Source: Bacteroidaceae bacterium (GTDB taxonomy: Bacteria > Bacteroidota > Bacteroidia > Bacteroidales > Bacteroidaceae). Taken from it: a DNA stretch of 52,075 nt. Shown here in pieces: positions 30,838 to 50,027 of the stretch. The translations under genes and the position numbers were made by a program. The stretch covers positions 1 to 52,075 of the forward strand of contig JAKSLJ010000023.1 of assembly GCA_024401275.1 (NCBI GenBank), given 5' to 3'. The notes under the pieces were generated by a model, which was given only the letters and a program-made list of their open reading frames with translations, ran no database searches and was not told where the DNA came from. How positions within the stretch are numbered: position 1 is the first letter of the stretch; the number at the start of each line of letters is the position of its first letter.

Positions 30838-31157
30838 ATTTATTTATTGATTTATTGATTTTTCCCCTCCCCAACAATAAAATAAATAAGTAAATAAATA
30901 AAAAATTTCACATACATATTTTGGCTTACACATCTATTATATATTATATTTAATTAAGGAATTACTTACTAATAGGAATAGCCCCGTGTGTGGAGTATAT
31001 ATTATTTTATTTATTTATTTATTTATTGATTCCCCTTACAGATTGTCACTTTGCTCTTTGTCAGGATTTTCCCTCAGATAATTCCAGCCTCTCTATCCCA
31101 CCCTTTAATTTTTAATTTTTAATCTTTAATTCCATGCCCTTCAGTCTTTAATTATTG

Positions 31158-31512
31158 GCTTTTTGTCTTTAATTTAAGCCCAATTTGGGCACCCTATGCA
31201 AAACTCCCTGCAAAACGATTCGTTTCCCTATGCCTTTCAATGCGAAACTGCCGCCGTTTTAGTGCCAAACTGACCGCCTTTTTCAGCTGTATGGCGCATT
31301 GTAGGGCGAACATTTGTGAGCCGTTTGCGCCGCAAAGCTATAATCTTCCGCCCCACCCCTCCTAACCCCTTGATTATCAACTCTATTCACATCCCCTTTC
31401 TCCTTTCCATATTCCCCGCCAAACATCTTCACCCCCAAAATACGCCCTTCTCACGCACATACGAGAAAGCAAAGTGTAAGCAAAATCGGCTTTTTAGTTA
31501 CAAAAGGGGAGC
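31158..31512. repeat. Conserved non-coding block, inverted copy at 49288-49626
   Basis: About 340 bp, roughly 85-90% identical by eye to the reverse complement of 49288-49626. Landmarks in order are GCCCAATTTGGGCACC, CAATGCGAAACTGCCGCC, GTAGGGCGA, CCGCCCCACCCCTCCTAACC and CTTCTCACGCACATACG. Short open frames in the two copies diverge by frameshifts after their first dozen codons, so it is not coding. Confidence 0.88.
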
Positions 31513-31588
31513 CTAACCAAGCCTTCCCAAAGGGAAGGATGTTAAATACTTCAACCCGCAGAAAGGAGCAACAAGTCGCCGCATTGGA

Positions 31589-32152
31589 AACGACGCCCCA
31601 TGGCGTCGTTAGGAAGCGAACATGAAACTGCCACTAAAGCCCACCGCAACTACTCGCCGCAAAACAAATTTCCCCCCTTGAAGAAGCCATGGGGCTTCTT
31701 CTCCAAATCACCGCATTGGAAACGACGCCCCATGGCGTCGTTAGGAAGCGAACATGAAACTGCCGCTAAAGCCCACCCCTGAGCAAACAAAAAGGCTGAA
31801 AGCCTTAAACACTCTAGCCTAGGGCATCGCCCTAGGTTATTGAATCGTAGCCGGTTGGAACTCGCTGCAACGCAGCAATGACATTATGCCATAGCCCAAA
31901 CCAATTGTCGCCAGTTCGGGCTAGGCAATCATCTTATTGCCGCGTTGCGGCGAATGTTCCGCCACCGCAATCATGGTCCTAGGGCGTTGCCCTAGGCTAC
32001 AATGTTAACGGCCTTCAGCCGTACAGGTCCGCAAAGCCATACTCGCCCCTTGAAGAAGCCATGGGGCTTCTTCTCCAAAGTCGCGCATTGGAAACGACGC
32101 CCCATGGCGTCGTTAAACCGCCGCAAAGCCCGCAGCAATGGCCTTCAGCCAT
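31589..32152. repeat. Palindrome-rich zone with several hairpin families
   Basis: Hairpins with stem AACGACGCC/GGCGTCGTT lie at 31589-31610, 31721-31742 and 32093-32114. Stem GAAGAAGCC/GGCTTCTTC lies at 31680-31701 and 32052-32073. CCTAGGGC/GCCCTAGG hairpins with 3-nt loops ATC and GTT lie at 31818-31836 and 31978-31996. ACGGC-CTTCA-GCCGT (32008-32022) and ATGGC-CTTCA-GCCAT (32138-32152) share a loop and differ by paired stem changes. The CCATGG-centred ones recur at 42784-42805, 49115-49133, 49154-49175 and 49245-49266. No gene is credible in 30787-32262. Confidence 0.85.
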
Positions 32153-32223
32153 AAACGCCCCTAAAACCACATCTAATTATTAACCTATTAAAACGGCTTA
32201 ACCCCTCAGCCGCAAGACATATT

Positions 32224-32262
32224 CTTCCTCCCCTAAAAAGGGGGAGGTTAGGAGGGGGTCCT
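32224..32262 (+). repeat. G-rich palindrome abutting a start codon
   Basis: CTTCCTCCCC-TAAAAA-GGGGGAGG followed by TTAGGAGGGGGTCCT and then the ATG at 32263. The repeat provides a purine-rich, Shine-Dalgarno-like leader for the VirE-like gene. A related arrangement precedes rpiB. Confidence 0.7.
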
Positions 32263-34701
32263 ATGATAACCTATCTACAAACAATCAAAGACACCAAGAC
32301 GCAGCGTCTGACTCCCGAGATTTGGGAGAGCCTCACAACCTCTCCACAGACGCAGCTCTACATCACAGAATTCCGCAAGAGTGGAAATCTGGACATGAAG
32401 CAACGACTGCCAGCAGTCAACTTCCAGGGCTATGACCCTAAAGTCCTCAAAGGACTTGAAGGCTCACGAAAGCAAGCAGACATGCTACCTACTGGACTCT
32501 TCATGCTTGATATTGACCACATTGATAACCCAAAAGCCGTTTGGGAAAAGTTCAAGCAGAGACTCAACCCCCTACCCCCCCAAGGGGGAACTCTTAATAG
32601 TTCCAAGGCGAACAGCACCGCAGAAGGTAATAACAACCTCCCCCTCGGGGGGATTGAGGGGGTCGTCGCACTCGTCCACATCACACCATCGGGCGAAGGA
32701 CTCCGAATCGTGATGAAACCTCTTGCCGGCGGCCCTATCGCTGCCGACCAAGAGATTCTTGCAAGAGAACTTGGCGTGAAGCACGATGTATGCACAAAAG
32801 ACCTCTCACGCTGGTCTTTCGTTCCACAAGCCAAAGACATCCTATTTATTAACCCTAAAATACTTTTTAGCCCCACCCCAACCCTCCCCCCAGGGGGAGG
32901 GGGAGTAAAAAATGACTCTGCGGATGTCAACCCTTACGCCAGGGCTTATGCAAACAAAACGCAAACGGCCAACGAAAACTCCCAGTCAAATTCCATTGAT
33001 AATCTCTCCCCCACTGGGGGGGGAGCCGGAGGGGGGCTATTTCCCTCAACCTACCGCGGCATTTCGTACGAAAAAATCGTTGAAGCGCTCATCCAGTACC
33101 ACGGCGGCACGCCAGAAGTCGGAGAACGTCACCACACAATCATCGCTCTCGCCAACGATCTCCGCTCCATCACAGACTCCAACGTCGATTGGCTCGTATC
33201 GCTCATTCCTAACTTCGATAAGCCTGACTATGAGAAGCGTGATGCTGTCACTTGGGCTGTTCAGCACAACTCTCTTCGCAGGACTAAGGCGCTGGCTGCT
33301 GTCCTTGATTGGCTGCAGAACGGAAAAAAGTTTACTCCAGAACAGGCATTAGAGGAGGAAATCAATGACCTTGATGAAGAGGCAGAAGATAACCGCAAGA
33401 GCGAAGCCCTCAAAGCTATTCCGCAGATGCCCGAAAAGCTTCCAAAACTCGTAGAGCTGCTAACATCAAAGGTCATGCCGTTTCAGAAGCCTGCCGTGGC
33501 ACAGATGATATTCCCACCTCTCGCGGCTCATGTGGCTGACAGCATCTTCATCAACAACGAGAACAAGAAATTCGAACTCGCGCTCATGGGAGTTGTCGTA
33601 GGCATGCAATCAGTCGGAAAAGGCTGCATAGACGCACCTACAGAATGCATCATCCAGAGCATCATTGATGAGGACGAACAGGCACGCGAGGAACTACGAG
33701 CATGGTCAGAGAGTCAGCAAAGCAAGGCTTCAAACGACAAGGGAACAAAACGCCCGGAGAAGCCTATCCGAATATTCAACACTGACACGACTCCTGCTGC
33801 GCTGCTTGCAAACCTCTATAATGCAGAGCATTTCGGTTACGCCAAGAACCTCTGCTGCTTCACCAAGAGCGAAGAGATTGAGGAATTGTACGACATGTCT
33901 CCGACTTCAGGACGTTCCAAGATTGCGCAGCTCATCAAGAAGACCTACGACCGTGGTCGCATTGGTTCGGAGCGCTATACTTCCTCCGCTGCCAACTACA
34001 CTACTGTACTGCGATGGAACTGGGTTACGGCTTGTACTCCCGACAAGGCAAAAGCATTCTTCAAGCGTGTACTCGTTGATGGAACACTCTCGCGCGTTGA
34101 TTTCGCAACGATCATCTCAGCTGAGGAAGACATCAAGTTTGTCTATGGCGACTACGACGAAGCCTTCGAGCAAGCTCTGGAGCCTTACATCCAGAACCTT
34201 CGCAACTTCCGCTGCGAGCATGACAAAAGGGGCAGACTTGTTCCGTTCCGACTTGAACAGCTCGTGCGCATAGAGGAAGAAATGGACGACTACATCCGCG
34301 AATACTCAAAGCTGATGCCAGACGACACTTGGCGCAACTTTGCTTGGCGCACGAAGCTAAACGCCCTCAAGAAGATCATCGTCTTGTATATTGCCAACGG
34401 CGGCAAGTGGGAAGAGTCGTTCGAACCTTTCTGCTGGTGGTCATTCTACTACGCAATGTGGGTGAAGATGAACCTCTTCTACGAAAAGGCTTCCGAAGCG
34501 TTCGGAGAAGAAAACATCGTGGCTAATGTATGGACGAGAAGTCCATTGGAACTTGTTAGCGAAGAGTTTACACGAAAGCAAATCTATGAAGCTTTCCGTC
34601 AGTGTGGCAGGACATCGCCAGGTGCCTCTCTTTTGAATTACTACGAAAAGCATGGTGTTGTCAAGAGAGTCGGCAAAGATGAATTCAAGAAGTTAAAATA
34701 A
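32263..34701 (+). CDS. VirE_N (BT4734-like)/DUF3987 primase-helicase-like protein
   Basis: 812 residues. The N-terminal domain (about 45-200) has MLDIDHID (Asp83, Asp85, His86), HITPSGEGLRIV and DVCTKDLSRWSF, resembling archaeo-eukaryotic primase-like VirE_N. The C-terminal DUF3987 part has a P-loop-like GMQSVGKG (447-454), CCFTKSEEIEELYD and GRSKIAQLIKKTYDRGRIGSER. The last 55 residues (LELVSEEFTRKQIYEAFRQCG...YYEKHGVVKRV) look like a winged helix. Three Pro/Gly-rich insertions (about 102-133, 203-214, 247-261) are coded by G/C-rich palindromic repeats kept in frame. The stop lies in the element's terminal array. Function unproven; relatives are often in integrated elements. Confidence 0.85.
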   Translation: MITYLQTIKDTKTQRLTPEIWESLTTSPQTQLYITEFRKSGNLDMKQRLPAVNFQGYDPKVLKGLEGSRKQADMLPTGLFMLDIDHIDNPKAVWEKFKQRLNPLPPQGGTLNSSKANSTAEGNNNLPLGGIEGVVALVHITPSGEGLRIVMKPLAGGPIAADQEILARELGVKHDVCTKDLSRWSFVPQAKDILFINPKILFSPTPTLPPGGGGVKNDSADVNPYARAYANKTQTANENSQSNSIDNLSPTGGGAGGGLFPSTYRGISYEKIVEALIQYHGGTPEVGERHHTIIALANDLRSITDSNVDWLVSLIPNFDKPDYEKRDAVTWAVQHNSLRRTKALAAVLDWLQNGKKFTPEQALEEEINDLDEEAEDNRKSEALKAIPQMPEKLPKLVELLTSKVMPFQKPAVAQMIFPPLAAHVADSIFINNENKKFELALMGVVVGMQSVGKGCIDAPTECIIQSIIDEDEQAREELRAWSESQQSKASNDKGTKRPEKPIRIFNTDTTPAALLANLYNAEHFGYAKNLCCFTKSEEIEELYDMSPTSGRSKIAQLIKKTYDRGRIGSERYTSSAANYTTVLRWNWVTACTPDKAKAFFKRVLVDGTLSRVDFATIISAEEDIKFVYGDYDEAFEQALEPYIQNLRNFRCEHDKRGRLVPFRLEQLVRIEEEMDDYIREYSKLMPDDTWRNFAWRTKLNALKKIIVLYIANGGKWEESFEPFCWWSFYYAMWVKMNLFYEKASEAFGEENIVANVWTRSPLELVSEEFTRKQIYEAFRQCGRTSPGASLLNYYEKHGVVKRVGKDEFKKLK
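32566..32662 (+). repeat. In-frame palindromic repeat insertion 1 in the VirE-like gene
   Basis: Two G/C palindromes, CCCCCTACCCCCCCAAGGGGG near the left and CCTCCCCCTCGGGGGGATTG near the right, flank about 40 nt. Together they code about 32 residues (NPLPPQGG...NLPLGGIEG) between the conserved segments KFKQRL and VVALVHIT. Confidence 0.8.
32869..32913 (+). repeat. In-frame palindromic repeat insertion 2
   Basis: CCCCACCCCAACCCTCCCCC followed by CAGGGGGAGGGGGAGT, coding SPTPTLPPGGGG just after the VirE_N domain. Same family as the 32224 and 32566 repeats. Confidence 0.75.
33003..33043 (+). repeat. In-frame palindromic repeat insertion 3
   Basis: CTCTCCCCCACTGGGGGGGG then AGCCGGAGGGGGGCTA, coding NLSPTGGGAGGG in the linker before YRGISYEKIVEAL. 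Confidence 0.75.
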
Positions 34702-34729
34702 ATAAATTAATAAATAAATAAAATAAAGT

Positions 34730-34761
34730 AAGGGCATGTCAGTTTGTTTTGACATGCCCTT
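34730..34761. terminator. Bidirectional terminator
   Basis: 12-bp perfect stem AAGGGCATGTCA/TGACATGCCCTT (34730-34741 with 34750-34761), loop GTTTGTTT. It lies between the end of element A and the convergent GH43 gene. Confidence 0.85.
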
Positions 34762-34775
34762 TGATTATATCCTAC

Positions 34776-36518
34776 TTACTTCGTTATCCGGAACCAGTCG
34801 ATGTCCATCCAACCGCGGACTTTCTTACCGGCAGGCTCAGCAGCGCAGAAACCGACCTTGGCTCCTACCCACTTGCCTTGACGCATGGTGAGAGGTTCGC
34901 CGCATGGCTTGAACTTCTTGCCGTCCTGCGAATAGAAGAAGGTAACCTTCGCCTCGTGCTTGTTGTCACCTTCGTCAGTAGTTCCACCGATGTATTCAAC
35001 CTTCAGACGGAAGTACATGTCGCAATGGATTGAAGGCTGGTAGTTGACCTTATCAACCGAAGTTGGCTTGAAGGTTGCAATGTCGGTGATCTTCTCTGCC
35101 TTATCCTTGTCGGCTGACTTGCACGAAATCTGTTGAAGCTTGAACTCATCCCCCACTCTACGGAGAACGATGCTGCTGTAATCCATGCCGAAACAGATGA
35201 GACCGCCGTACTGACCTTCGTCCTTGGCTGACACTGTAACCTTGGCTGTTGCGGTGAAGTTGTCGGCAGGAGTCTTTTGAAGAAGGAGATTGCCCGCTTC
35301 CCAAAGGTTCTTGAAATCGGCACTCTGACGATGACAGAAAAGACGGAAATAGCCGTCGGAAGTAGGCATGCCGAAAGTCTGGTCGTAGTTGGCATTCCAC
35401 TGCCACTGCTTGCCGAGCTTAACGGAACTGAACTCGTCGTTCTCAACAGGATTGTTTATAGCGTAAGTCTTGCCGACATTAGGCTTCTTGTATGTCATAA
35501 CCGGCTGTCCGCAATACTTATCGAGAGTTGGCAGATTAGGATTATACATCTTGTTCTGCTTTGAAGGCTTGAGAGGTTCACCCATGACAGGCCAGTTGTC
35601 AACCCATTTTACAGGCTCGAGCCATACCACGCGACCGTAAGCCTCCTTGTCCTGGAAATGCAAGAACCAGTCTTCGCCCTGAGCAGTATGAACCCAGCCG
35701 CCCTGATGAGGACCATTGATGCCAGTATCACCCTTGGCAAGAACAACCTTATATTCGTAAGGACCGTAAGGCGACTTCGAGCGCATTGCCACCTGATGAC
35801 CAGTAGGAACGCCACCAGCAGGGAACATCACCCAATACCAGCCGTCACGCTTATAGAACTTCGGACCTTCAGCTGTGCGATGCGGAGTGCCGTTGCCGTC
35901 GAATACAATTACCGGATTTCCGATAGCCTTCATGCCATCAGCTGACATCTCACGAACAGTAAGAACGGAATTGAACTGACAGCGGGAATTGGCCCAGCCA
36001 TTCACGAGATAGCACTTGCCATCCTCATCCCAGAGAGGAGAAGTATCAATCATGCCCTTGCCTTCGATTATGCACTTTGGCTCAGTCCATTCTCCGGCAG
36101 GATCCTTTGCCGTAACGACGAAAACGCCAAGGTCAGGGTCGCCCCAGTAGATGTAGTAGAGCTGGTTGTACTTGTTGTATCGGATGCAAGGAGCCCAAAC
36201 GCCGTTGCCGTGTTGAGGAACGTTGTAGCGATCGTAAGGCGGCAATGCCTTCACGGCGTGGTTGATTATCTCCCAGTTGACGAGGTCTTTTGAATGAAGA
36301 ATAGGAAGACCAGGAAGATGCGAGAATGAGGAAGCCGTAAGATAGAAGTCTTCGCCGGAAGCGCCTACACAGACGTCAGGGTCGGAGTAGTCGGCGTTGA
36401 TGACAGGGTTAGTGAAGGTGCCGTCGCCATTGTCGGGACACCATACCTGCGACTTGTATTGAGCCGAGACAGTAAGGGTCAGGACGGCAAAGGCTGCGAG
36501 TAAGAGAGTTTTTTTCAT
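34776..36518 (-). CDS. GH43 beta-xylosidase/alpha-L-arabinofuranosidase (XynB-like)
   Basis: 580 residues. Signal peptide (LTVSAQ, residue 20). GH43 propeller acids: Asp46 in YSDPDVC (base), Asp158 in GMIDTSPLW and Glu217 in AEGPKFY (acid). Conserved SSFSHLPGLPILHSKDLVNW and HGNGVWAPCIRY place it in the XynB/GH43_12-like group. A C-terminal concanavalin-like domain (about 370-578) completes the XynB layout. It probably acts in the periplasm on xylo- or arabinoxylo-oligosaccharides, complementing the GH67 enzyme. The upstream ATP-grasp gene is 82 bp away across two hairpin repeats; shared transcription is possible but not shown. Confidence 0.9.
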   Translation of the reverse strand: MKKTLLLAAFAVLTLTVSAQYKSQVWCPDNGDGTFTNPVINADYSDPDVCVGASGEDFYLTASSFSHLPGLPILHSKDLVNWEIINHAVKALPPYDRYNVPQHGNGVWAPCIRYNKYNQLYYIYWGDPDLGVFVVTAKDPAGEWTEPKCIIEGKGMIDTSPLWDEDGKCYLVNGWANSRCQFNSVLTVREMSADGMKAIGNPVIVFDGNGTPHRTAEGPKFYKRDGWYWVMFPAGGVPTGHQVAMRSKSPYGPYEYKVVLAKGDTGINGPHQGGWVHTAQGEDWFLHFQDKEAYGRVVWLEPVKWVDNWPVMGEPLKPSKQNKMYNPNLPTLDKYCGQPVMTYKKPNVGKTYAINNPVENDEFSSVKLGKQWQWNANYDQTFGMPTSDGYFRLFCHRQSADFKNLWEAGNLLLQKTPADNFTATAKVTVSAKDEGQYGGLICFGMDYSSIVLRRVGDEFKLQQISCKSADKDKAEKITDIATFKPTSVDKVNYQPSIHCDMYFRLKVEYIGGTTDEGDNKHEAKVTFFYSQDGKKFKPCGEPLTMRQGKWVGAKVGFCAAEPAGKKVRGWMDIDWFRITK

Positions 36519-36533
36519 CCTTAATATTAAAAT

Positions 36534-36600
36534 AACCCGGCGGAAAAGCGCCGGGAACTGTGGCTAGAGACCGAAAGCAAACTTTCGGGAACTGTGGCCG
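36534..36600 (-). repeat. REP-like hairpin array after the ATP-grasp gene, two units
   Basis: On the minus strand, two GCCACAGTTCCC units follow the TAG stop of the upstream gene. The first has stem CCGAAAG/CTTTCGG, the second CCCGGCG/CGCCGGG. They belong to the family at 8863 and 11150; the CCGAAAG stem is a fully compensated variant. Confidence 0.85.
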
Positions 36601-37656
36601 CTACTTTACCTTCAATTCGAAATTGCGGGCGAAGTCAATAATCATATTGCGGTCTGGGGTGAGGTCATCGGAATGGAAGTTGAGGGCTACATGTCCCATG
36701 GTGCGACGGAAGTTTATCTCTACGCAAGGATGCAAGAGGAAGCCAGCTCCGTTCTTCACAATCATCATATCAACGCCGATGCCGCCCTCGTAACCATCAG
36801 GAATGATCGAGGCGAGATAGTCTTCAAGACAAGAAACGGTCTCGTCAATCTGACTTGGGAAGATATACTGCTCAAGAATCTCGCGCTTATGTTCTTCTGT
36901 GGTTATGAGCGAAGAAGAATATGCCGTGTAGCAAGTGTCGAAGATGGAGAAACCGCAGAAATGCACTACTCCACCGACAGCTTCGAACTCCATGGCGAAG
37001 TCGCGCAGCTTATCGTACTTTGGTTCAACCATGAGCGAGCCTTGCTGATTGATGACATTATCAATCCAACGAAGAAGCGAAGGCGCACAATTCTCCTTAG
37101 TAACAAACCTTATTCCGCGTCCGCTACAACTCCATGGCGCTTTCAGCACCACCTCGCCATACTTCTCAATAAGCTGGAGAAGTTCGTTGATGGTGGTAAT
37201 CTCGAAGGCAACAAAGTCAGAAGCGACATGCTCGAGGAACTGCTTTGCCGTACGACGGTGAGAGATTTCCCTTACCTGGTCAATAAATTCCTCAGAAGGA
37301 AGTCGCTCTGCCGGCCATCCGAGAGACTTGAAGAGGTGCAATACGGTCTTGTCCCATCCCCAAGGAGCAGGCATGAGGTCAAAATGACGACGCTGGATTT
37401 TCTCTCTGATGATAGATCGCATCCTGTTGAAACCAACGAATCTTACATCTTTATATATATATGGAGCGAGCTTGTCTGCCGCCTTATACGCATATTCAAT
37501 ATCCTCAACGAGCACCATGTCACCATCATCTGCCCAAAGAACAGGCATGAAGGCTAACTCACGACGCATCTTCACCACATTATGAGATGGGGTGAAACAG
37601 TCTTTGTTCATTGCCAAAGCAATCTCGTGTTCTGGATTGAAAATGTGAAGTTTCAT
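36601..37656 (-). CDS. ATP-grasp-like protein of unknown function
   Basis: 351 residues. An N-terminal region typical of a Bacteroidetes conserved family (MKLHIFNPEHEIALAMN; WGWDKTVLHLFKSLGWPAERLPS) is followed by an ATP-grasp pattern: GEVVLKAPWSCSGRGIRFV (glycine-rich lid), LMVEPKYDKLRDFAMEF (metal/ATP side) and GGIGVDMMIVKNG...LHPCVEINFRRTMGHVA (Glu-x-Asn metal ligands). No membrane segment or signal peptide. ATP-grasp enzymes ligate carboxylates to amines or thiols; neither substrate nor partner is apparent. The stop TAG is followed at once by hairpin repeats, then GH43. Confidence 0.75.
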   Translation of the reverse strand: MKLHIFNPEHEIALAMNKDCFTPSHNVVKMRRELAFMPVLWADDGDMVLVEDIEYAYKAADKLAPYIYKDVRFVGFNRMRSIIREKIQRRHFDLMPAPWGWDKTVLHLFKSLGWPAERLPSEEFIDQVREISHRRTAKQFLEHVASDFVAFEITTINELLQLIEKYGEVVLKAPWSCSGRGIRFVTKENCAPSLLRWIDNVINQQGSLMVEPKYDKLRDFAMEFEAVGGVVHFCGFSIFDTCYTAYSSSLITTEEHKREILEQYIFPSQIDETVSCLEDYLASIIPDGYEGGIGVDMMIVKNGAGFLLHPCVEINFRRTMGHVALNFHSDDLTPDRNMIIDFARNFELKVK

Positions 37657-37691
37657 GGAGAAAAAATGGTTGTGTTATGATTATATCGGTG

Positions 37692-37699
37692 CAAAATTA
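37692..37699 (-). promoter_or_regulatory. -7 box for the ATP-grasp gene
   Basis: Minus-strand TAATTTTG, 35 bp before the ATG. A TTTG lies 23 bp further upstream (37726-37723), slightly too far for the consensus. Confidence 0.45.
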
Positions 37700-37770
37700 G
37701 CAAAAAAATGATGAACATAGAACAAAAATCAAAAATATTTGCCTTTTTTGTCATTTTTTGTAAACTATAG

Positions 37771-37801
37771 TTTGCAATATGTGATTTTTTTTATAACTTT
37801 G
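37771..37801 (+). promoter_or_regulatory. Promoter of the AAA ATPase gene
   Basis: TTTG (37771-37774), 19-bp spacer, TAACTTTG (37794-37801), a full match to the Bacteroidetes consensus. The leader would be only about 10 nt. Confidence 0.75.
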
Positions 37802-37815
37802 CACACGATTTTATT

Positions 37816-39006
37816 ATGATGGAAGCATTCTATAGAACACATAAATACTTAGTGGAGCATGTAAATGCCCCGCTGAGACGCTACTTGAACGACGAGATAG
37901 ACTGGAGTGCCCGTCTCATCGGTATCAAGGGAACAAGAGGCGTTGGAAAAACCACTTTCCTCCTTCAATATGCCAAGGAGAACTATGGTCCTTCCAACCG
38001 TCACTGTCTGTATGTCAACCTCAACAATTTCTACTTCCAGGGCCACACTCTCGTGGAATTTGCCGGAAAGTTTGTTGAAGATGGCGGTCAGGTTCTTCTC
38101 ATTGACCAGGTGTTCAAGATGCCAAATTGGAGTCAGCAACTTCGTGCTTGCTACGACAGTTATCCAGCACTGCAGATTGTATTTACCGGTTCAAGCGTGA
38201 TGCGCCTGAAAGAAGAGAACACGGAAATCGGCGGCATCGTAAAGAGCTACAATCTTCGCGGCCTTTCTTTCCGCGAATATCTTACGCTGCAGACAGGCAT
38301 CACCTTCCCAGTATTCTCTTTGCAGGACATTATCAGCAATCATGAGCTCATAGTGCGCCAGATACTGCAGAAGGTTACTCCATCCGTTCACTTCAAGAAC
38401 TATCTGCACCACGGCTTCTACCCATTCTTCATGGAGAAGCGCAACTACTCTGAGAACCTGCTTGCAACGATGAGCATGATGATAGAGGTGGACATTCTTG
38501 TAATCAAGCAGATAGAGCTGAAGTATCTTACTCGCATAAAGAAACTGTTCTACGAACTTGCCATCAACGCAGGCAAGGCGCCAAACATCAGCAAGCTTGC
38601 CGTGGATGTGGATACATCAAGAGCAACGGTAATGAACTACATCAAGAACCTTGCCGACGCGCGTCTCATAAACATCATTCATCCTGTAGGCGAGGTTCAT
38701 CCGAAGAAGCCTACGAAGATAATGCTCCACAACTCAAACCTCATGTACGCCATCTACCCGATAAATGTCGAGCTGCATGACGTGATGGAGACTTTCGCCG
38801 TCAACTGCCTCTGGAAAGACCATAAGGTAAACCAGGCTGCCCACGACAAGCACTTCATCATAGACGAGGAGATAAAGAGCCGCGTCATCGATGCAAAACG
38901 CCAGACAAAGACAAGGACAGACGCCAACACCATCTATTTCAGATACAACACGGAAGTGGGTGCCGGCAATCAGATTCCAATCTGGCTCTTGGGCTTTATG
39001 TATTAA
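37816..39006 (+). CDS. AAA_14/DUF4143-type ATPase
   Basis: 396 residues. Walker A GIKGTRGVGKTTFLL (Gly38-Thr46). The Walker B position reads VLLIDQVFKM: Asp97 is kept but the usual catalytic Glu is Gln98. Sensor-like FTGSS follows. The C-terminal half has a winged-helix part (ISKLAVDVDTSRATVMNYIKNLADARLINII) and a DUF4143 nuclease-fold-like region. These ATPases are common in Bacteroidetes, some beside toxins or mobile DNA, but their function is mostly unknown. The Gln suggests slow or absent hydrolysis. Start codons at 37816 and 37819 are equivalent. It is monocistronic or read into the PFOR gene. Confidence 0.8.
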   Translation: MMEAFYRTHKYLVEHVNAPLRRYLNDEIDWSARLIGIKGTRGVGKTTFLLQYAKENYGPSNRHCLYVNLNNFYFQGHTLVEFAGKFVEDGGQVLLIDQVFKMPNWSQQLRACYDSYPALQIVFTGSSVMRLKEENTEIGGIVKSYNLRGLSFREYLTLQTGITFPVFSLQDIISNHELIVRQILQKVTPSVHFKNYLHHGFYPFFMEKRNYSENLLATMSMMIEVDILVIKQIELKYLTRIKKLFYELAINAGKAPNISKLAVDVDTSRATVMNYIKNLADARLINIIHPVGEVHPKKPTKIMLHNSNLMYAIYPINVELHDVMETFAVNCLWKDHKVNQAAHDKHFIIDEEIKSRVIDAKRQTKTRTDANTIYFRYNTEVGAGNQIPIWLLGFMY

Positions 39007-42714: not shown

Positions 42715-42737
42715 TCATTATTCAAACAGATAAAATT

Positions 42738-42770: not shown

Positions 42771-42783
42771 CTGTTTTAATGGA

Positions 42784-42805: not shown

Positions 42806-42978
42806 AAACCGCCGCAATACATGTCTCAAAGTTTTTCTTTGTTTTTTTACTCAAAGAAAACTAAAGAAAAGAAAGAAATTTTATCGCCAAATAAGTTTCT
42901 TTTGTTTCTTATCCAATTTCTTTGAGCTACATATTATCTTGGAGATGTGCGGTTGTAGGGCAAAGAGTATATAGTCTC

Positions 42979-43899
42979 CTATTTCTTACCTTTATTAATC
43001 ACATAAATTCCAACGGCGGCAAGTGTTCCTGCTATGACATATTTCCAATAGAAAGTTTCTCCTAAGCAGAGGCAGGAAGTAACTGCTCCAACAACAGGAA
43101 TAAGCGAATTGAAGATGGTTACCTTTCCGACAGGATTACAGCTAAGTAGCTTATTATAAAGCCCAAAACCGGTTGTAGAGATTCCGATAAGCAGCAACAA
43201 ATAGATGATTCCGCGAACGGTAACATTCGGCAAAGAGCCGCCAATCAGCAATCCTGGAACAATGAGCAAAGCTCCTCCTACTGCGAGCGCATAGCCAGTG
43301 CCGACAAAAACATCTATTCGTTTGCTCAAACCACGAGTCATAAGTGAGGCGGCAGCACTGCACAAAGCATTGAGGATGATAAAGCCATCGCCCAAAAGAG
43401 TGAATTGTCCACTCTCCTTGCCACCAAGATTAAGGGCAAGAATTCCAATGAAACCAAGCAAACAACCAATGATTTTTCGCATAGTCATCTTGTCGCTTTT
43501 GAAGAAAATACAGGCAAGAATGACAACAGAGAAAACGCTCATGGAGTTGAGAATCGCAGAGCGTGAACCTTCTGCGTGAGACAAGCCGATATAAAAGAAG
43601 AGGTAATGGAGTGTGGTATTCAGAAGCGAAAACAGCAGAACATACCACCAATGGCGCTTAAAATCAAAAGCCAGTGACTTGCCTTTCGTCTGCGCCATAG
43701 CCAAGATGATAAGTCCTGATATGCAGAATCTTATACCCGCAAACAGCATCTTGCTGCCAGTCATGTCCTGAGTAATCTGAAATTCCCCGAAACCGAGTTT
43801 TATGAGAGGATATGCCCATCCCCAAACCACGGCTGCGGTAAGGGCGAAAAGAGCCACCCAGAAAGGGCGTTGGAATATACTGATATTTTCTTTTTTCAT
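42979..43899 (-). CDS. EamA/DMT-family transporter
   Basis: 306 residues with about ten membrane segments in two EamA repeats. Conserved features are VVWGWAYPLIKLG in the first helix, HYLFFYIGLSHAEGSRSAILNSMSVFSVVI at the end of repeat one and GISTTGFGLYNKLL...IPVVGAVTSCLCLGE in repeat two. DMT members export or import metabolites such as amino acids; the substrate is not readable. It is convergent with the PFOR gene and divergent from the SDR gene. Confidence 0.88.
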   Translation of the reverse strand: MKKENISIFQRPFWVALFALTAAVVWGWAYPLIKLGFGEFQITQDMTGSKMLFAGIRFCISGLIILAMAQTKGKSLAFDFKRHWWYVLLFSLLNTTLHYLFFYIGLSHAEGSRSAILNSMSVFSVVILACIFFKSDKMTMRKIIGCLLGFIGILALNLGGKESGQFTLLGDGFIILNALCSAAASLMTRGLSKRIDVFVGTGYALAVGGALLIVPGLLIGGSLPNVTVRGIIYLLLLIGISTTGFGLYNKLLSCNPVGKVTIFNSLIPVVGAVTSCLCLGETFYWKYVIAGTLAAVGIYVINKGKK

Positions 43900-43948
43900 G
43901 CTATGGTTTGACTGAATAAATCGTTATGGCATAGGAGATAAAACGATG

Positions 43949-43956
43949 CAAAGGTA
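43949..43956 (-). promoter_or_regulatory. -7 box for the DMT transporter
   Basis: Minus-strand TACCTTTG, 50 bp before the start. Confidence 0.45.
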
Positions 43957-44040
43957 CGACATTTTATATAATTATAACGAGATTTTAGGAAAAAGCGAAA
44001 AAAAAATCAGCGTTTCTTGCTCATTATAAAAGAAAAATCG

Positions 44041-44048
44041 TAAATTTG
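44041..44048 (+). promoter_or_regulatory. -7 box for the SDR gene
   Basis: TAAATTTG, 48 bp before the ATG at 44096. Confidence 0.45.
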
Positions 44049-44095
44049 CCGAAAGAAAAACAAAAACCAGAAACAAAGAATAAAACTGAAATACA

Positions 44096-44857
44096 ATGAA
44101 AAAGATAGCCCTGATAACAGGTGCCACAAGTGGCATCGGAGAAGCTTGCGCAAGAAAGTTTGCAGAAGGCGGATACAATCTGATTCTCACAGCACGACGC
44201 GGCGAATTGCTAGAAAACTTAAAGGCTGAGCTTGAGGCTACAGGCGCAAAGGTCAAGAATCTTGTGTTTGATGTTCGCGATGCAGAAGCTGCAAAGAAGG
44301 CAGTGGAGTCACTTGAAGAAGAATGGCAGAACATTGATGTTCTCATCAACAACGCGGGACTTGCTCTAGGTCTTGAAAAAGAGTACGAGGGCGACCTGGA
44401 TGAATGGAGCACAATGATTGACACAAACATCAAGGGACTGCTTACCATGACACGACTCATCGTTCCTCGCATGATAGAACGCAACGAAGGCCATGTGATA
44501 AATGTTGGTAGCGTGGCTGGTGATGCGGCTTATGCTGGCGGCAATGTTTATTGTGCCACAAAAGCGGCTGTCAAGGCAATAACAGACGGACTGCGAATAG
44601 ATGTGGCAGAATCTGCGGTTCGCGTAACAAACCTTAAGCCAGGACTCGTTGAGACTCATTTCAGCAATGTGCGTTTCCGCGGAGATGACGAACGTGCGGA
44701 CAATGTTTACAAAGGCATCAAACCTCTCACAGGAGAAGACATCGCGGATGTGGCGTTCTATGCTGCCAGCGCTCCTAAGCATGTGCAGATAGCGGAAGTG
44801 CTTATCCTTGCAACTCACCAAGCTAGCGGAAGTGTGATACATAGAAGTGAAAAATGA
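44096..44857 (+). CDS. Short-chain dehydrogenase/reductase (YdfG-like)
   Basis: 253 residues. Classical SDR: TGATSGIG cofactor loop (8-15), ARR at the end of beta-2 (NADP preference likely), LINNAG, and the catalytic Ser...Tyr-x3-Lys (GSVAGDAAYAGGNVYCATKAA). PGLVETHFSNVRF and DDERADNVYKGI are like the E. coli YdfG (3-hydroxy acid/serine dehydrogenase) group. Probable substrates are small hydroxy acids, but not certain. It is 57 bp before the MFS gene on the same strand; the gap has two AAAGTGGAAA repeats. Confidence 0.9.
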   Translation: MKKIALITGATSGIGEACARKFAEGGYNLILTARRGELLENLKAELEATGAKVKNLVFDVRDAEAAKKAVESLEEEWQNIDVLINNAGLALGLEKEYEGDLDEWSTMIDTNIKGLLTMTRLIVPRMIERNEGHVINVGSVAGDAAYAGGNVYCATKAAVKAITDGLRIDVAESAVRVTNLKPGLVETHFSNVRFRGDDERADNVYKGIKPLTGEDIADVAFYAASAPKHVQIAEVLILATHQASGSVIHRSEK

Positions 44858-44914
44858 AAAGAGAAAAGCTTAAAGTGGAAAAACGAAAAGCATAAAGTGG
44901 AAAGCAGGAATTGC

Positions 44915-46099
44915 ATGAAACCGAACGAAGGAATAGCGTCATGGCTGGTTCTTCTGCTCGCTATCATGGCAGGAGTGTCAGTAGCTAACTTATACTACTG
45001 CCAGCCATTGCTGAACCTAATACGAGAAGACATGGGATTGACGGAGTTTCAGGTAAATCTCATGCCGGTTTGTACACAGGTTGGCTATGCTCTCGGTTTG
45101 CTTTTCATCATTCCGATGGGCGACCTCTACAACCGTCGCACCACGATAACAGCTTGCTTTCTCTGCCTTATAGTGTCGCTCTGCGACATTGCGCTCACCC
45201 ACAATGTCTTGTTGCTACTTTTGGCATCGCTGATAACCGGTTTCTGTTCTGTTGCGCCACAAGTGTTCATTCCTTTTGTCACGCTCTATTCTAAGCCTCA
45301 TGAGAAGGCAAAGAAGGCGGGTTTCATTCTTACAGGATTGCTCTGCGGAATATTAGGTTCCCGAGTTGTCAGCGGATATGTTGGAAACTTATTTGGATGG
45401 CGAATAATTTACTATGTAGCAGCTATGGCAATATTCATCTCTGCATTACTGACGCTACGATTCTTCCCAAATGTAGAGCCGACATATAAAGGAAAGTTCC
45501 ACACCCTGATGACTTCCATAGTAGCATTAGGCAAACAGCATCCTCGCGCCCTACTCTATTCCGTCCGTTCCGCATTGACTTTCGGTTCTATACTCGGCAT
45601 GTGGGCATGCCTTGCCTTCCTTATGGCAGAAGCGCCGTTCCATCAGGGCAGCGACACAGTCGGACTACTCGGACTCTGCGGAGTTGCGGGAGCTTTGACA
45701 GCATCAAATGTAGGACGCTATGTTCCTCGTTTTGGCGTAGAACGAATAAACATATTTGGCATTATCCTCGTCTTGATGGCATGGATTATAATGGCAGTAT
45801 TTCACAACACTTACGCAGGAATCATAGCTGGAGTTATCATCATAGACATCGGAATGCAATGCGTGCAGCTTTCCAACCAAACTGCGACAATACAGCTTTC
45901 GCCAGAAGCTTCTAGCCGCATGAACACCATCTACATGACAACCTATTTCATTGGCGGTTCGCTCGGTACTTTCCTTGCAGGATCACTCTGGAGCCAATTC
46001 GGCTGGTTTGGAACTGTTGCAGCAGGTGCGGGCATGGCAATATTGGCAATGGCGATATCAGTAATTTCAAAAACTAAAACTAAACTAGTAAATCAATAA
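44915..46099 (+). CDS. Major facilitator superfamily transporter
   Basis: 394 residues from ATG 44915 (a GTG six codons upstream is less likely). Twelve membrane segments are expected. MFS motif A is recognisable as GDLYNRRTTI after helix 2, and QPLLNLIREDMGLTEFQVNLMPV and GSLGTFLAGSLWSQFGWFG resemble the YnfM/CynX-like drug:H+ antiporter groups. The substrate is unknown. Its stop codon lies inside a tetranucleotide array (46090-46123) that resembles element A's arrays. Confidence 0.87.
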   Translation: MKPNEGIASWLVLLLAIMAGVSVANLYYCQPLLNLIREDMGLTEFQVNLMPVCTQVGYALGLLFIIPMGDLYNRRTTITACFLCLIVSLCDIALTHNVLLLLLASLITGFCSVAPQVFIPFVTLYSKPHEKAKKAGFILTGLLCGILGSRVVSGYVGNLFGWRIIYYVAAMAIFISALLTLRFFPNVEPTYKGKFHTLMTSIVALGKQHPRALLYSVRSALTFGSILGMWACLAFLMAEAPFHQGSDTVGLLGLCGVAGALTASNVGRYVPRFGVERINIFGIILVLMAWIIMAVFHNTYAGIIAGVIIIDIGMQCVQLSNQTATIQLSPEASSRMNTIYMTTYFIGGSLGTFLAGSLWSQFGWFGTVAAGAGMAILAMAISVISKTKTKLVNQ

Positions 46100-46123
46100 A
46101 TAAATAAATCAATAAATAAAAAA
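46090..46123. repeat. Solo AAAT-type tetranucleotide array
   Basis: AATC-(AATA)3-AATC-(AATA)2, complementary to ATTT/ATTG arrays like those of element A. It contains the MFS stop codon and fills the 26-bp gap to the next gene. It could be a footprint of a lost element or a simple repeat. Confidence 0.55.
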
Positions 46124-46125
46124 AG

Positions 46126-46710
46126 ATGACACAAGAAGAATTCTACAACATTAACTGGCATCGTGGCAACATTGTCAGATTGGAAAATGGCAAGGAGTAT
46201 GAAGTAAAGGGAACCAAGAGCCATGGCAGATTCCTTCTGCTCTTTTCCGAGGAATACGAAAAATGCTTTGTTGCAGATCACAACATCGTTGACATCCGCA
46301 TCTCTGATTACGAAGAACCTGAGGAAGTCTATCTTGAGCATAAACGCCAAAGGCAAGCAGAGGCGCAAGCTAGAAGAGAAGCCGAGAAGCAGGAATATCT
46401 TCGCCTGAAAAGAGAGCGCAAGCAGAAAAACATTCAAGAGCAAGAGCGCATGCATCTGGAAGCCGTGGCTAGAAAGGCTGCTAAGGCAGAGGCTAGAGCT
46501 CTGGCAGCACAACAAGCCGCAGCAGAAAAAGCAAAAAAGGCAATAGCACCTGCACCAACCAGGTCAATTCCGTCAAAACCGGAACCTTTCCCTGAAACAT
46601 CTTTCACTCCAAAAACCGTTGCCGCTTCAGAAACAGCCGCTAATCCAGAACAGCCAAAGCGCAAACGTCAGCGCATAAAAATCAGCCACCCAACAAAATT
46701 AAAATGGTAA
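46126..46710 (+). CDS. Hypothetical basic coiled-coil protein
   Basis: 194 residues. The N-terminal 65 form a small beta-type domain (HRGNIVRLENGKEYEVKGTKSHGRFLLLFSEEYEKCFVADHNIVDIR), followed by a highly charged helix or coiled coil (about 68-140, rich in Glu, Arg, Lys, Ala) and a basic Pro-rich tail (KRKRQRIKISHPTKLKW). No signal peptide or recognised family. The tail could bind nucleic acid, which is a guess. It is 6 bp upstream of the next gene, so they are co-transcribed. Confidence 0.75.
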   Translation: MTQEEFYNINWHRGNIVRLENGKEYEVKGTKSHGRFLLLFSEEYEKCFVADHNIVDIRISDYEEPEEVYLEHKRQRQAEAQARREAEKQEYLRLKRERKQKNIQEQERMHLEAVARKAAKAEARALAAQQAAAEKAKKAIAPAPTRSIPSKPEPFPETSFTPKTVAASETAANPEQPKRKRQRIKISHPTKLKW

Positions 46711-46716
46711 GTATAT

Positions 46717-47250
46717 ATGGCAGAAATTTTTTATGAGAGTCAATTCGGATCATACCTCTATGGCATTATATTTGCAGTCGTATTTGCATTTGCTACTGGA
46801 TGCGTTGTCCAGAAGTTGCGCAAGGACCACAGAAACCTGGAGGGATGGCAGAAGGCGGTTCTCGGCGGCTTTGGTGTCCTGTTCGCCTTCATCACAATTT
46901 ACAGCCTTGTCTCTATGACAGACTCGGTGGAAGGTAGTGTATCAATTACGGAGAAGGAGATTGTCATACACAAGAGTGATGGAGACGAACTTGTCATACC
47001 CAAGGAACATGTTATCACCTGGGGCATGAAGCCACACGTAAGGTCGGACGAGGCAGACAAGGAGATATGGGAACCTAATGTAGTGGGATATGACAACCTT
47101 CGCATCACATATTACGAATCTGCTGCCGCAGCTGCCTCATACGACAACCATGGCGTTGAAGAATACTACAACCTCATGCTCTACAGCGGTGAGGACCAGC
47201 TCAGGATGCACGACCTGATGGAGATGTACTATCCACGCACGAAAGATTAA
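46717..47250 (+). CDS. Hypothetical two-helix membrane protein
   Basis: 177 residues. Two hydrophobic segments at about 12-30 and 45-66 (LYGIIFAVVFAFATGCVV; AVLGGFGVLFAFITIYSLV) precede a soluble beta-rich domain (68-177; SVSITEKEIVIHKSDGDELVIPKEHVITW...) with an acidic C-terminal part. No family recognised. It forms a pair with the preceding gene and ends with a terminator shared with amt. Confidence 0.75.
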   Translation: MAEIFYESQFGSYLYGIIFAVVFAFATGCVVQKLRKDHRNLEGWQKAVLGGFGVLFAFITIYSLVSMTDSVEGSVSITEKEIVIHKSDGDELVIPKEHVITWGMKPHVRSDEADKEIWEPNVVGYDNLRITYYESAAAAASYDNHGVEEYYNLMLYSGEDQLRMHDLMEMYYPRTKD

Positions 47251-47264
47251 GCCGAACCAAAAAA

Positions 47265-47294
47265 CTGGCAGGTTCTTTCACAAGAATCTGCCAG
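47265..47294. terminator. Bidirectional terminator
   Basis: 13-bp stem CTGGCAGGTTCTT/AAGAATCTGCCAG (one G-U) with a 4-nt loop, between the convergent hypothetical gene and amt. Confidence 0.82.
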
Positions 47295-47321
47295 CTAATT
47301 GAGAAGCATTCGTGCTGATGC

Positions 47322-48695
47322 TTATCCTTTTGACTTAATATGCTCCTCGTATTCGGCAATTTCCCTTTCGCCTACGTGAGCAAGTCCGTAATGTTCGTCA
47401 TGCTGTGAGAAGTCAAGGCCGACAACCTCACTCTCATGGCTTACGCGCATCGGTATCATCTTGTCTATCAGCCAGTAACCAAAGTAGCTGACAACAAATG
47501 TATAGATAAATACAATAACAACAGCAAGAATGTGGTAGAGGAAGACTACGACACCTTCAGAAGTGCCAGAGATAAGACCTTCCTGAATGAAGATACCCGT
47601 GAGTACTGTTCCGAGAATACCACCAGTACCGTGTGTTGGGAACACATCGAGAGCATCGTCAACATTCGTCTTCTTCTCACGCCAATAAACAGCAATGTTA
47701 CAGCAGATAGCGATTACGAAAGAGATGAAAGTAGCCTGACCTACAGTAACATAGGCAGCAGAAGGAGTGATAGCAACAAGACCGACAACGCAACCCACTG
47801 AAGCACCCATTGCCGAAGGCTTTCTGCCGCGCAAACAGTCAAAGAAAATCCAAGTCATCATCGCCGTTCCGCTGGCAACAGTCGTGTTGAGGAAAGCCTT
47901 TACAGCCATGCCGTCAGCATGGAGCGAACTACCAGCGTTGAAGCCGAACCATCCGAGCCAGAGCATGGCAGCACCGAGGAGGACAAACGGAATATTTGCA
48001 GGTTCAGATTTCTTCGTCGTTCTTCTTCCAAGGAAAATGGCACCGGCAAGGGCTGCAACACCAGAAGAAGCATGTACCACGATACCACCGGCAAAGTCAA
48101 CGACACCCCATTTCAGGAAAAGTCCGTCCGGATGCCATGTCATGTGCGCGAGCGGACAATAAATAACGATAAAGAAGAAAATCATGAAAAACAGATAGCC
48201 TGAAAAACGCACGCGCTCAGCAAAGCTACCAGTGATAAGCGACGGAGTGATGATGGCAAACTTCATCTGGAAAAGACAGAACAAGGCGAGCGGAATAGTT
48301 GCACCGCCTACAATGTTGCCTGTAGGAGCCGTATAAACTTCAGCACCAACGTTCTCCAGCATGAGGAATGTCGTAGGATCGCCAATGATGCCGCCAATGT
48401 CGTCGCCGAAAGCAAGACTGAAGCCGAACGCCATCCACATCACGCAGATAATACCCATTGCAATAAAGCTCTGCAGCATGGTGCTGATAACATTCTTGGC
48501 ACCAACCATACCGCCATAGAAGAATGAAAGACCAGGAGTCATCATAAGCACGAAAATCGTTGCCGTGATAAGCCACGCAACGTCAGCGCGATCTATCACG
48601 CTCCAGTCACACTCGAAAGTTGGTTCTTTCGCAAACAAGCCGGCTATAGCTATCAGAGTCATTGCCGACATAAGGATAAGCCATCTTTTTTTCAT
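47322..48695 (-). CDS. amt: Ammonium transporter (Amt/MEP/Rh family)
   Basis: 457 residues with an N-terminal hydrophobic segment and 11 membrane helices. Signatures: DVAWLITATIFVLMMTPGLSFFYGGMV, the F-gate/S1 region, DFAGGIVVHASSGVAALAGAIFLG (pore His), AAMLWLGWFGFNAGSS and the second pore His in FPTHGTGGILGT. The C-terminal tail (IPMRVSHESEVVGLDFSQHDEHYG) is the usual GlnK-interacting motif. It conducts NH4+/NH3 across the inner membrane under nitrogen limitation. No glnK or glnB is adjacent; the nearest downstream gene is convergent. Confidence 0.96.
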   Translation of the reverse strand: MKKRWLILMSAMTLIAIAGLFAKEPTFECDWSVIDRADVAWLITATIFVLMMTPGLSFFYGGMVGAKNVISTMLQSFIAMGIICVMWMAFGFSLAFGDDIGGIIGDPTTFLMLENVGAEVYTAPTGNIVGGATIPLALFCLFQMKFAIITPSLITGSFAERVRFSGYLFFMIFFFIVIYCPLAHMTWHPDGLFLKWGVVDFAGGIVVHASSGVAALAGAIFLGRRTTKKSEPANIPFVLLGAAMLWLGWFGFNAGSSLHADGMAVKAFLNTTVASGTAMMTWIFFDCLRGRKPSAMGASVGCVVGLVAITPSAAYVTVGQATFISFVIAICCNIAVYWREKKTNVDDALDVFPTHGTGGILGTVLTGIFIQEGLISGTSEGVVVFLYHILAVVIVFIYTFVVSYFGYWLIDKMIPMRVSHESEVVGLDFSQHDEHYGLAHVGEREIAEYEEHIKSKG

Positions 48696-48731
48696 CTTTT
48701 TTAAGTTGTAGTTTAGTTTTTGTGTTGTTTA

Positions 48732-48768
48732 AGTCGAAACAATCTTTTTGTTTTCGACTGCAAAATTA
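48732..48768 (-). promoter_or_regulatory. -7 box and leader hairpin of amt
   Basis: Minus-strand TAATTTTG (48768-48761) is followed by a hairpin AGTCGAAA/TTTCGACT (48759-48752 with 48739-48732) in the amt leader. The hairpin could affect translation. No -33 box. Confidence 0.45.
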
Positions 48769-48938
48769 CAGCTTTCCTTTCACACTTTCAGCACCAGAGA
48801 CACACTTTCAAAAAACATTTTTCGCCAACTTACTATCCGAAAGCCATATTGCCCAAAAGACTTACAGATAGAAAGTTGGCGAAAAAAATAATAAAAAAGA
48901 ATAAAAAGATGAAGAGCGCAAAATACTTACTTACTGAC

Positions 48939-49112
48939 TTACTTACTTATCTTTTCAAAGTTGTTTTTGTCAATGCGTCTTATTTTACCTTCTTTCTCGT
49001 AGTATCTAACCAAAGGCGCTCCTTTAGTCTTTTTACCACACATCTTAATAGCGTCATAAAGTTCATTGCGAGTAAACTTGTCGCCCACCAATTCCAGAGC
49101 TTTAGCGGTGGC
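48939..49112 (-). pseudogene. C-terminal remnant of a VirE/DUF3987-like gene
   Basis: The frame 49097-48939 codes LELVGDKFTRNELYDAIKMC followed by GKKTKGAPLVRYYEKEGKIR and RIDKNNFEKISK. It aligns without gaps to the last 52 residues of the intact gene at 32263-34701, sharing LELV, FTR, CG, GA, YYEK and other positions (about 45% identical by eye). Upstream the frame hits TAA at 49113-49115, inside a truncated palindromic repeat. The stop codon TAA lies in the terminal array, as in the intact gene. The rest of the gene is missing. Confidence 0.85.
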
Positions 49113-49114
49113 TT

Positions 49115-49266
49115 AACGACATGGGGCGTCGTTTCCAATGCGGCGAGTTTGGAGAAGAAGCCTCATGGCTTCTTCAATGGGGCGAATATGGCTTTGCGGC
49201 GAGTTGTTGCGGTGGGCTCTTACGGCGAGCTTTTGCGGCGGTTTAACGACGCTATGAGGCGTCGTT
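49115..49266. repeat. CCATGG-family hairpins in element B
   Basis: Hairpins at 49115-49133 (shortened AACGAC/GTCGTT), 49154-49175 (GAAGAAGCC/GGCTTCTTC, loop TCAT) and 49245-49266 (AACGACGC/GCGTCGTT). The first joins directly to the gene remnant, marking the deletion endpoint. Confidence 0.82.
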
Positions 49267-49287
49267 TCCAATGCGGCGACTCGTAGC

Positions 49288-49626
49288 TCCTTTTTGTAAC
49301 TAAAATGGGGGATTTGCTTACACTTTGCTTTCGCGTATGTGCGTGAGAAGGGCGTATTTCGGGGGTGAAGATATTTGGCGGGAAATATGGAAAGGAGAGA
49401 GAGATTGGGGATGTGCTGATTATCAAGGGGTTAGGAGGGGTGGGGCGGAAGGTTATAGCTTTGCGGCGCAAACGGCTCGGAAATCCTCGCCCTACAATGC
49501 GCCATACAGCGGAAAAAGGCGGTCAGTTTTGCATTAAAACGGCGGCAGTTTCGCATTGAAACGCCAAAGGAGACGAATCGTTTCGTAGGGAGTTTTGCAT
49601 AGGGTGCCCAAATTGGCCTGAAATTA
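49288..49626. repeat. Conserved non-coding block, inverted copy of 31158-31512
   Basis: Same landmarks in reverse order as in element A, including CCCTACAATGCGCCATACAGC, which here retains the full GAAATCCTCGCCCTACA arm (49479-49495) of the GTAGGGCGAGG family. Confidence 0.88.
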
Positions 49627-50027
49627 AAGATTAAAATTAAAATAAAAGACTGAAGGGCTAGATTAAAGACTAAAAATTAAAAAATAAAGGGTGCGGAGAA
49701 TTATCTGAGGGAAAAAGCTGACAAAGGCTGAACTTACGGTTTGAAAGGCTGCGGGTAAGTAAGTCAGTAAGTAAGTATTTCGCTCTCCGCCCCTACCCTA
49801 TTCCTTATAATAAGTATTTCCTTAATTATATTATATATATAATAGATGTGTAAGCGTAAGAAAGTTGTGCGAGAAACTTACTTACTGACTTACTTATTTA
49901 CCCAAAATATCCCCCAAAAGGGTAAGTTGGCAATAGGTAATTGGTGCGAAAAAGCGTGCAAAAAGGATAAGTAAGTAAGTCAGTAAGTAAGTATTTCGCT
50001 CTTTATGGAAGCTCCCCCTCCCCCACC

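Follow-up and report, generated by a model that had tools for sequence, protein, structure and literature searches.

Matching short-repeat arrays and a VirE-like primase-helicase suggest P4/PICI-like integrated replicons in a Bacteroidaceae bacterium

We analyzed a 52,075-bp stretch of DNA from a Bacteroidaceae bacterium (contig JAKSLJ010000023.1, hereafter the window), in which two related elements, A and B, carry four arrays each of a short tandem repeat. The arrays within an element share one repeat unit, the units differ between elements, the anatomy around an AT-rich core resembles a replication origin, and a further repeat site lies at the 3′ end of the gene for a VirE-like primase-helicase. 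We consider it probable that these elements are P4/PICI-like integrated replicons, with the VirE-like protein as initiator and the arrays as its cognate iterons. Binding to the arrays, replication, action in trans, and excision or spread are activities that we infer for them.

Reading of the sequence recovered all eight arrays that an earlier note on this DNA had listed for A and B, at positions no more than 1–2 bases from those it gave. In element A, array 1 (30838..30861, plus strand; unit ATTT with ATTG odd units) is followed by array 2 with the inverted ATTT unit (30880..30899, minus strand), the AT-rich core common to 12 elements (30920..30965, plus strand; CTTACACATCT...AATTAAGGAAT), array 3 (31009..31031, plus strand; ATTT) and a conserved non-coding block 3′ of array 3 (31040..31512, plus strand). 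The VirE-like gene (32263..34701, plus strand) encodes 812 amino acids and is the proposed initiator gene; its stop codon is overlapped by array 4 (34696..34722, minus strand).

Element B has the same layout with an ACTT unit and lies on the minus strand of the window. It comprises array 1 (49968..49993, minus strand), array 2 (49876..49901, plus strand), which is inverted relative to array 3, the AT-rich core (49818..49852, minus strand), array 3 (49755..49777, minus strand), the conserved non-coding block (49116..49754, minus strand), a VirE-like remnant (48948..49109, minus strand) and array 4 with an ACTG odd unit (48924..48949, plus strand). In the orientation of each element, the strands of arrays 1 to 4 thus alternate + − + − in A as well as in B.

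Block 31040..31512 of A recurs wholly or partly in B and in four further elements of the same genome (C5, C34, C12 and C20). The DNA between the arrays had been put at 85–90% identity between A and B; we measured about 80–83% over the aligned parts. The proposal that an odd unit keeps a fixed place holds for B, where ACTG is the third unit in all four arrays, but not for A, where the odd units are ATTG, ACTT, ATTG or ATTA at varying positions. A lone ATTT-type array lies between two genes of the window (46091..46124, minus strand). Further tetranucleotide arrays occur elsewhere in the same genome, outside the core-bearing elements.

With a detector score of at least 12 as the cut-off for window and controls alike, the window yielded 9 arrays, 8 of them in A and B, whereas 20 stretches from other genomes of the genus (326,988 bp) yielded none. 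The arrays of A and B are therefore not due to chance. They are real and far from chance expectation, and the pattern generalizes to other elements.

Searched as a pattern, the AT-rich core was found at 12 sites in 2 of 398 same-genus genomes, the genome of the window included. Seven of these sites are in that genome (A, B, C5, C34, C20, C12 and C2) and five in one other genome of the genus (H143, H144, H149, H151 and H152). Copies in the genome of the window had first been located by a search with the left part of A, and their units were obtained by array scans. The unit is GAGT/GAAT in C5, ACTT/ACTG in C34, ATTT in C20, GTCC in C12 and TGAC in C2; the five elements of the second genome have TGTC, GTTC (three elements) and GTTA.

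Altogether 43 arrays were read in the 12 elements, most of them from a periodicity scan, with the C2 arrays and array 3 of C12 read by eye. Four arrays each were found in A, B, C5, C34, C2, H143, H144 and H149, three each in C20, C12 and H152, and two in H151; the spacing between arrays 1 and 2 is 16–66 bp in the 11 elements for which both could be read. We scored concordance by the commonest tetranucleotide of each array. The earlier note's central observation, that the arrays within an element match, extended to the whole set: 55 of 58 within-element array pairs agree, despite eight element-level units, and the three discordant pairs all involve one mixed array (array 2 of H149). When units were shuffled among arrays, agreeing pairs averaged 7.0 and reached 20 at most, and none of 20,000 shuffles reached 55.

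A single C-to-T switch at all arrays, as had been suggested for A and B, does not fit the relationships of the cores. A core tree, whose support is weak, joins A to C20, another ATTT element, and B (ACTT) to C5 (GAGT), with C34, the other ACTT element, placed away from B. Judged from this tree and the distribution of units, unit changes seem to have occurred several times, each time in all arrays of an element.

Among the 12 elements, only A carries an intact VirE-like (BT4734/DUF3987-type) primase-helicase gene. Its protein has a BT4734-like N-terminal region, with a Pfam match below the cut-off. The matches to BT4734-like_N (E 0.001) and DUF3987 (E 2e-5) are weak, both below cut-off; against the curated cut-off in bits, A scored 19.7 versus 22.4 and the protein of locus L217 24.3 versus 27, and that of L226 gave no match. 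In six aligned VirE-like proteins, a Walker-A-like G452-K453 is invariant, as are the acidic residues D83 and D85, which fit the hhhDhD primase motif given in PMC5862659. That paper names the BT4734 family and primase motifs, and the term “iterons” is absent from its text. A helix-turn-helix-like tail was recognized by eye at the C terminus of the A protein. The structure model of its C-terminal 123 residues was too poor to use (pLDDT 51), and the VirE profile matched none of the solved structures.

In C5 the VirE-like gene is split by an insertion, and B has lost nearly all of it, keeping the last ~54 codons (44% identical to A). A search with nine VirE-like proteins gave no VirE-like gene in the examined stretches of the other nine elements; in the second genome, one VirE-like match lies elsewhere. 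Nor was an intact VirE found for the ACTT, GAGT, GTCC and TGAC types in the genome of the window, which is 91% complete. With the gene intact in 1 of 12 elements, the arrays evidently persist without it. VirE-like proteins as such are common in the genus, with 181 of 398 genomes carrying one at E ≤ 1e-20, mostly 27–35% identical to that of A. In contrast, a profile search of 247 genomes drawn from the order gave only two matches beyond the genome of the window at E ≤ 1e-30.

We also examined the surroundings of VirE-like genes in this wider family, at loci hand-picked from a ranked list, many of them from draft genomes. A scan for tetranucleotides only, covering 29 VirE loci with 1.5 kb flanks, gave two short arrays, both of CGAAC repeats close to the end of VirE (L119 and L125). 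With other periods included, the sequence at the VirE 3′ end recurred upstream in 21 of 55 loci, compared to 23 of 391 other ORF ends.

For an origin-like pair, we then required two inverted arms with a score of at least 15, located no more than 9.5 kb upstream of VirE and separated by 70–330 bp that include a 40-bp stretch with an A+T content of ≥85%. Such a pair was present in 31 of 56 evaluable VirE loci of the first set, during whose inspection the criterion was set, and in 10 of 20 loci of a second set, which was chosen after the criterion had been fixed and in which VirE was located with a broader query set. Overall, 41 of 76 VirE loci have a pair and 35 do not, compared to 1 of 40 control windows; as all loci were chosen by VirE, the primase-helicase is present in them by construction. 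Two loci of the second set come from outside the genus and gave no pair.

The arms are usually direct repeats of 6–9 bp, with units such as AACGGT/AACAGT (L238), CAGTTGA (L226), CTCAAAT (L206) and TTGTGACAA (L216), and 19 of 31 passed a strict threshold for periodicity, compared to 0.3% of shuffled arms. A perfect AT palindrome of 20–42 bp lies between the arms in 21 of 30 pairs. Arrays 2 and 3 of A and of B likewise flank an AT-rich core, in which perfect palindromes (as in the core of C5) are only 8–16 bp long.

A site in the genome of the window links the two layouts. At C34:128810-129045, inverted ACTT arrays surround a 32-bp AT palindrome without the core of the tetranucleotide family, and the occurrence of the ACTT unit in both layouts of one genome hints at a shared reader. 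In C17 of the same genome, AAAC arrays surround an AT-rich tract.

Further, an arm of the pair recurs at the 3′ end of VirE, in a region from −160 to +200 around the stop codon, in 15 of 31 pairs of the first set and 8 of 10 of the second. All 23 third copies are in plus orientation, compared to 53 of 2,050 anchor points placed at random in these loci as background; the copy is missing in 18 of the 41 pairs. In the first set, 12 of 15 copies start 44–59 bases before the stop, within the coding sequence, and the other three are 3′ of it. A copy within the VirE gene itself, ~1.64–1.71 kb before the stop and always in plus orientation, occurs in nine loci, which represent three iteron classes; three of these nine also have the copy at the gene end. 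Array 4 of A, C5 and B, which abuts or overlaps the VirE 3′ end, occupies the same place as this third copy.

The concordance within elements, the upstream pairs and the third copies together make iterons matched to a VirE-like initiator the best reading of these data, in line with what the earlier note had suspected. Two observations count against this reading: the gene is intact in only one core-bearing element, and the C-terminal helix-turn-helix shows no covariation with the iteron over and above that of the remaining protein. Across 30 wider-family loci and A, iteron similarity tracks VirE similarity when the C-terminal region is left out of the protein comparison (r 0.46, reached by none of 2,000 permutations), which indicates that the VirE-like gene and its iterons are inherited together. 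The C-terminal helix-turn-helix added no correlation (partial r −0.07, 1,640 of 2,000 permutations as high), and the idea that it is the iteron reader was thus not supported.

We propose that the VirE-like protein would assemble on the inverted iteron arrays that flank the AT-rich tract, which would serve as the origin. The initiator would melt this tract, and its primase-helicase would prime synthesis. The third set of iterons, located where the initiator gene ends, may act in cis with the origin, as crr of P4 does with ori1. Iteron sequence and unit length (4 bp in the tetranucleotide elements; 6, 7, 8 or 9 bp in relatives) would be private to each element and would have to change at all sites together. 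Under this model, A would be an autonomous ATTT-type member and B a non-autonomous deletion derivative of an ACTT-type member, and elements that combine this core with different cargo would be non-autonomous as well.

Alternatively, the arrays could be terminal or subterminal sites of a recombinase that acts in trans, as in MITE-like transposon ends, with VirE as cargo. Arrays 1 and 4 are inverted and outermost, the elements are dispersed, and two of them are short and gene-poor (H143 and H144, each <0.7 kb). Cargo is variable, and no gene is common to all core-bearing elements. A carries the VirE-like gene only; C5 a BspA-type LRR protein (by sequence likeness), a Bro-N/ANT protein, an HU-type protein and an M15 peptidase; and C34 two BspA-type LRR proteins and a Sel1-repeat protein. 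Candidate defense genes are found in C2, whose proteins match the candidate phage-defense models PDC-M09A and, weakly, PDC-M09B, next to a sigma-like protein matching MzaA, a WYL protein and a HATPase, and in H149, which carries a NUDIX protein, an XRE-type regulator and a partner matching PDC-M64 models.

However, we could not confirm the arrays as element boundaries, as the earlier note had described them. A check for an empty site of A by its DNA flanks in 60 genomes placed the flanks on separate contigs or places, with no shared locus, and no target-site duplication was seen by eye at the elements. The only recombinase among the scanned proteins is the resolvase-family gene in the insertion that splits the VirE-like gene of C5, and no integrase, attachment-site, phage-induction or packaging genes were recognized among the scanned proteins of A, B, C34, C2 and H149. 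Array 4 is present in 8 of 12 elements and was not found in the examined stretches of C12, C20, H151 and H152. In the wider family, the third copy lies inside or just after VirE, with element-like genes behind it in places (a DUF5675 gene behind VirE in L248, and similar gene starts in other loci), so that this site does not have to mark the boundary of an element there. A role of the arrays as mobile-element ends is thus not established, and we regard recombinase sites as an unlikely explanation of the arrays.

With the L217 protein as query, plasmids yielded no match and phages one candidate, a 4.1-kb fecal scaffold with a similar cluster and a 9-bp iteron after VirE. In viral contigs, the core pattern matched two contigs, both without matched arrays, and VirE alignment confirmed none of 62 candidates. 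Across genome contigs, the core pattern gave 12 stretches, of which five, from one horse-feces genome, have arrays; the seven without arrays were taken as chance matches. No Rfam family came near its gathering score in 30600–32300, and we found no description of such arrays in a search of open-access papers.

We consider it rather improbable that an element-specific repressor uses the arrays as its operators or stoperators, a kind of immunity group that would force all sites to match. Repressor-stoperator systems do have concerted, element-specific motifs at many sites, and the AT-rich core could hold a promoter. Against this, the ORF lists hold no repressor gene common to the elements, A carries the VirE-like gene alone, one site lies within the VirE coding end in many relatives, and inverted arrays around a perfect AT palindrome resemble an origin. 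Mutual pairing of the arrays in hairpins or strand exchange, with recombination or slippage keeping them alike without a reader protein, is less probable again: simple repeats mutate fast, the + − + − alternation lets any plus array pair with any minus array, and arrays 1 and 2 are close together, but pairing does not require the unit to be repeated at a length of 4, 6, 7, 8 or 9 bp, or a further copy to sit at the VirE end in a constant position and orientation.

The reading of a VirE-like initiator with cognate iterons can be compared to known systems. In P4, crr is a second repeat-bearing cis site away from ori1; the primase of pRN1 ORF904 is of the archaeo-eukaryotic type; and a parvovirus genome can carry its arrays at two or more sites. 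The VirE elements share with the alpha/ori1/crr arrangement an extra repeat set apart from the origin, which 23 of 41 pairs have, and this is a likeness of layout only. P4 alpha, as described in PMC4234260, is a single primase-helicase whose winged-helix domain binds the origin repeats. Its primase is of the Toprim type according to the same paper, whereas the primase region of the VirE-like proteins is BT4734-like; no Toprim-type primase domain was found in them, only the weak BT4734-like_N and DUF3987 matches. Also unlike P4, iteron type and length vary between the VirE elements, and no integrase or P2-like helper was found among their scanned proteins.

Origins of PICIs (SaPI, EcCI) consist of two iteron sets flanking an AT-rich region and are served by a Pri-Rep protein, according to PMC6092414. 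Two flanking sets are likewise present in 41 of 76 VirE loci and in A and B. However, the PICI origin lies 3′ of rep, whereas here the pair is upstream of VirE with a copy at the gene end, and none of the PICI genes int, alpA and those for packaging was found among the scanned proteins. Like the VirE-like protein, pRN1 ORF904 joins a primase to a helicase, with a C-terminal winged helix, and a site 3′ of its gene is required (PMC4234260); in contrast to the VirE elements, its origin has no iterons and consists of a stem-loop. On the tetranucleotide arrays of parvoviruses, one Rep monomer binds every four nucleotides (PMC2809752), which makes a 4-bp unit plausible and implies no kinship. The likeness to these Rep-binding elements is one of binding-site grammar, and we do not claim homology; parvovirus Rep is an HUH nuclease that acts at viral terminal repeats, unlike the VirE elements.

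More tentatively, the pattern could extend further than we are inclined to believe at present: replicons of this kind may occur genus-wide, with a private 4- to 9-bp code at the origin pair and the initiator end that is switched often and always together, and non-autonomous elements with surface-protein or candidate defense genes may borrow a code-matched initiator. It is an open question in replicon evolution how the specificity of an initiator can change jointly with that of its dispersed binding sites. The eight tetranucleotide versions in two genomes and the many longer-unit versions in the genus offer a natural series for the study of cognate binding. If the proposed reading is true, it would give a role to the VirE-like gene clusters of 181 of 398 genomes of the genus, and it would explain how elements without a recognized recombinase or initiator persist, including their carriage of candidate defense genes.

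The intact VirE-like gene of element A, which carries four ATTT arrays, contains GC-rich palindromic repeats (CCCTCCCCC...GGGGGAGGG) in frame at window positions 32565-33050. A genome search returned weak matches to residues ~200-260 of the encoded protein at other places in the genome, and these look like the same dispersed repeat. Palindromic repeats of a dispersed type, such as CATTGGAAACGACGCCCCATGGCGTCGTT, also form a tract at window positions 31550-32160, for which a separate search gave dozens more matches in the genome.

In C5, another core-bearing element of the same genome, an insertion of ~8.5 kb (G000 C5:42809-51290, L041) interrupts the VirE-like gene near residue 709. This insertion encodes a resolvase-family recombinase together with a BT4734-like protein of its own. 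At C2, a third such element, a NUDIX gene lies immediately outside array 1, the outermost upstream array (L167, 3885-4280). It is closely similar to a NUDIX gene located inside H149, an element of a second genome, from horse faeces (L149, 5299-5709).

Arrays were also observed outside the twelve elements that combine the common AT-rich core with matched arrays. A single ATTT-type array (window 46091-46124), with no element surrounding it, lies in the interval that separates the end of an MFS gene from the following ORF. Additionally, arrays of AAAC/GTTT units occur at several places in the genome (L050, L051, L052, L053, L054, and L056); these are mostly single, and one inverted pair flanks an AT-rich tract (C17).

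The human faecal sequence MT839699.1 (L272), an unverified, linear scaffold of 4.1 kb deposited as "Bacteriophage sp.", encodes DUF3127-like (score below the cut-off), VirE-like, and DUF5675-like (named by eye) proteins, and a 9-bp iteron, the element-specific repeat, is found downstream of its VirE-like gene. Among wider-family VirE loci of the genus to which the window belongs, an iteron copy was also detected within the gene itself, ~1.64-1.71 kb upstream of the VirE stop codon (L198, L199, L200, L209, L212, L214, L216, L231, and L239). This intragenic copy is common to three iteron classes, and its orientation is constant in all nine loci.
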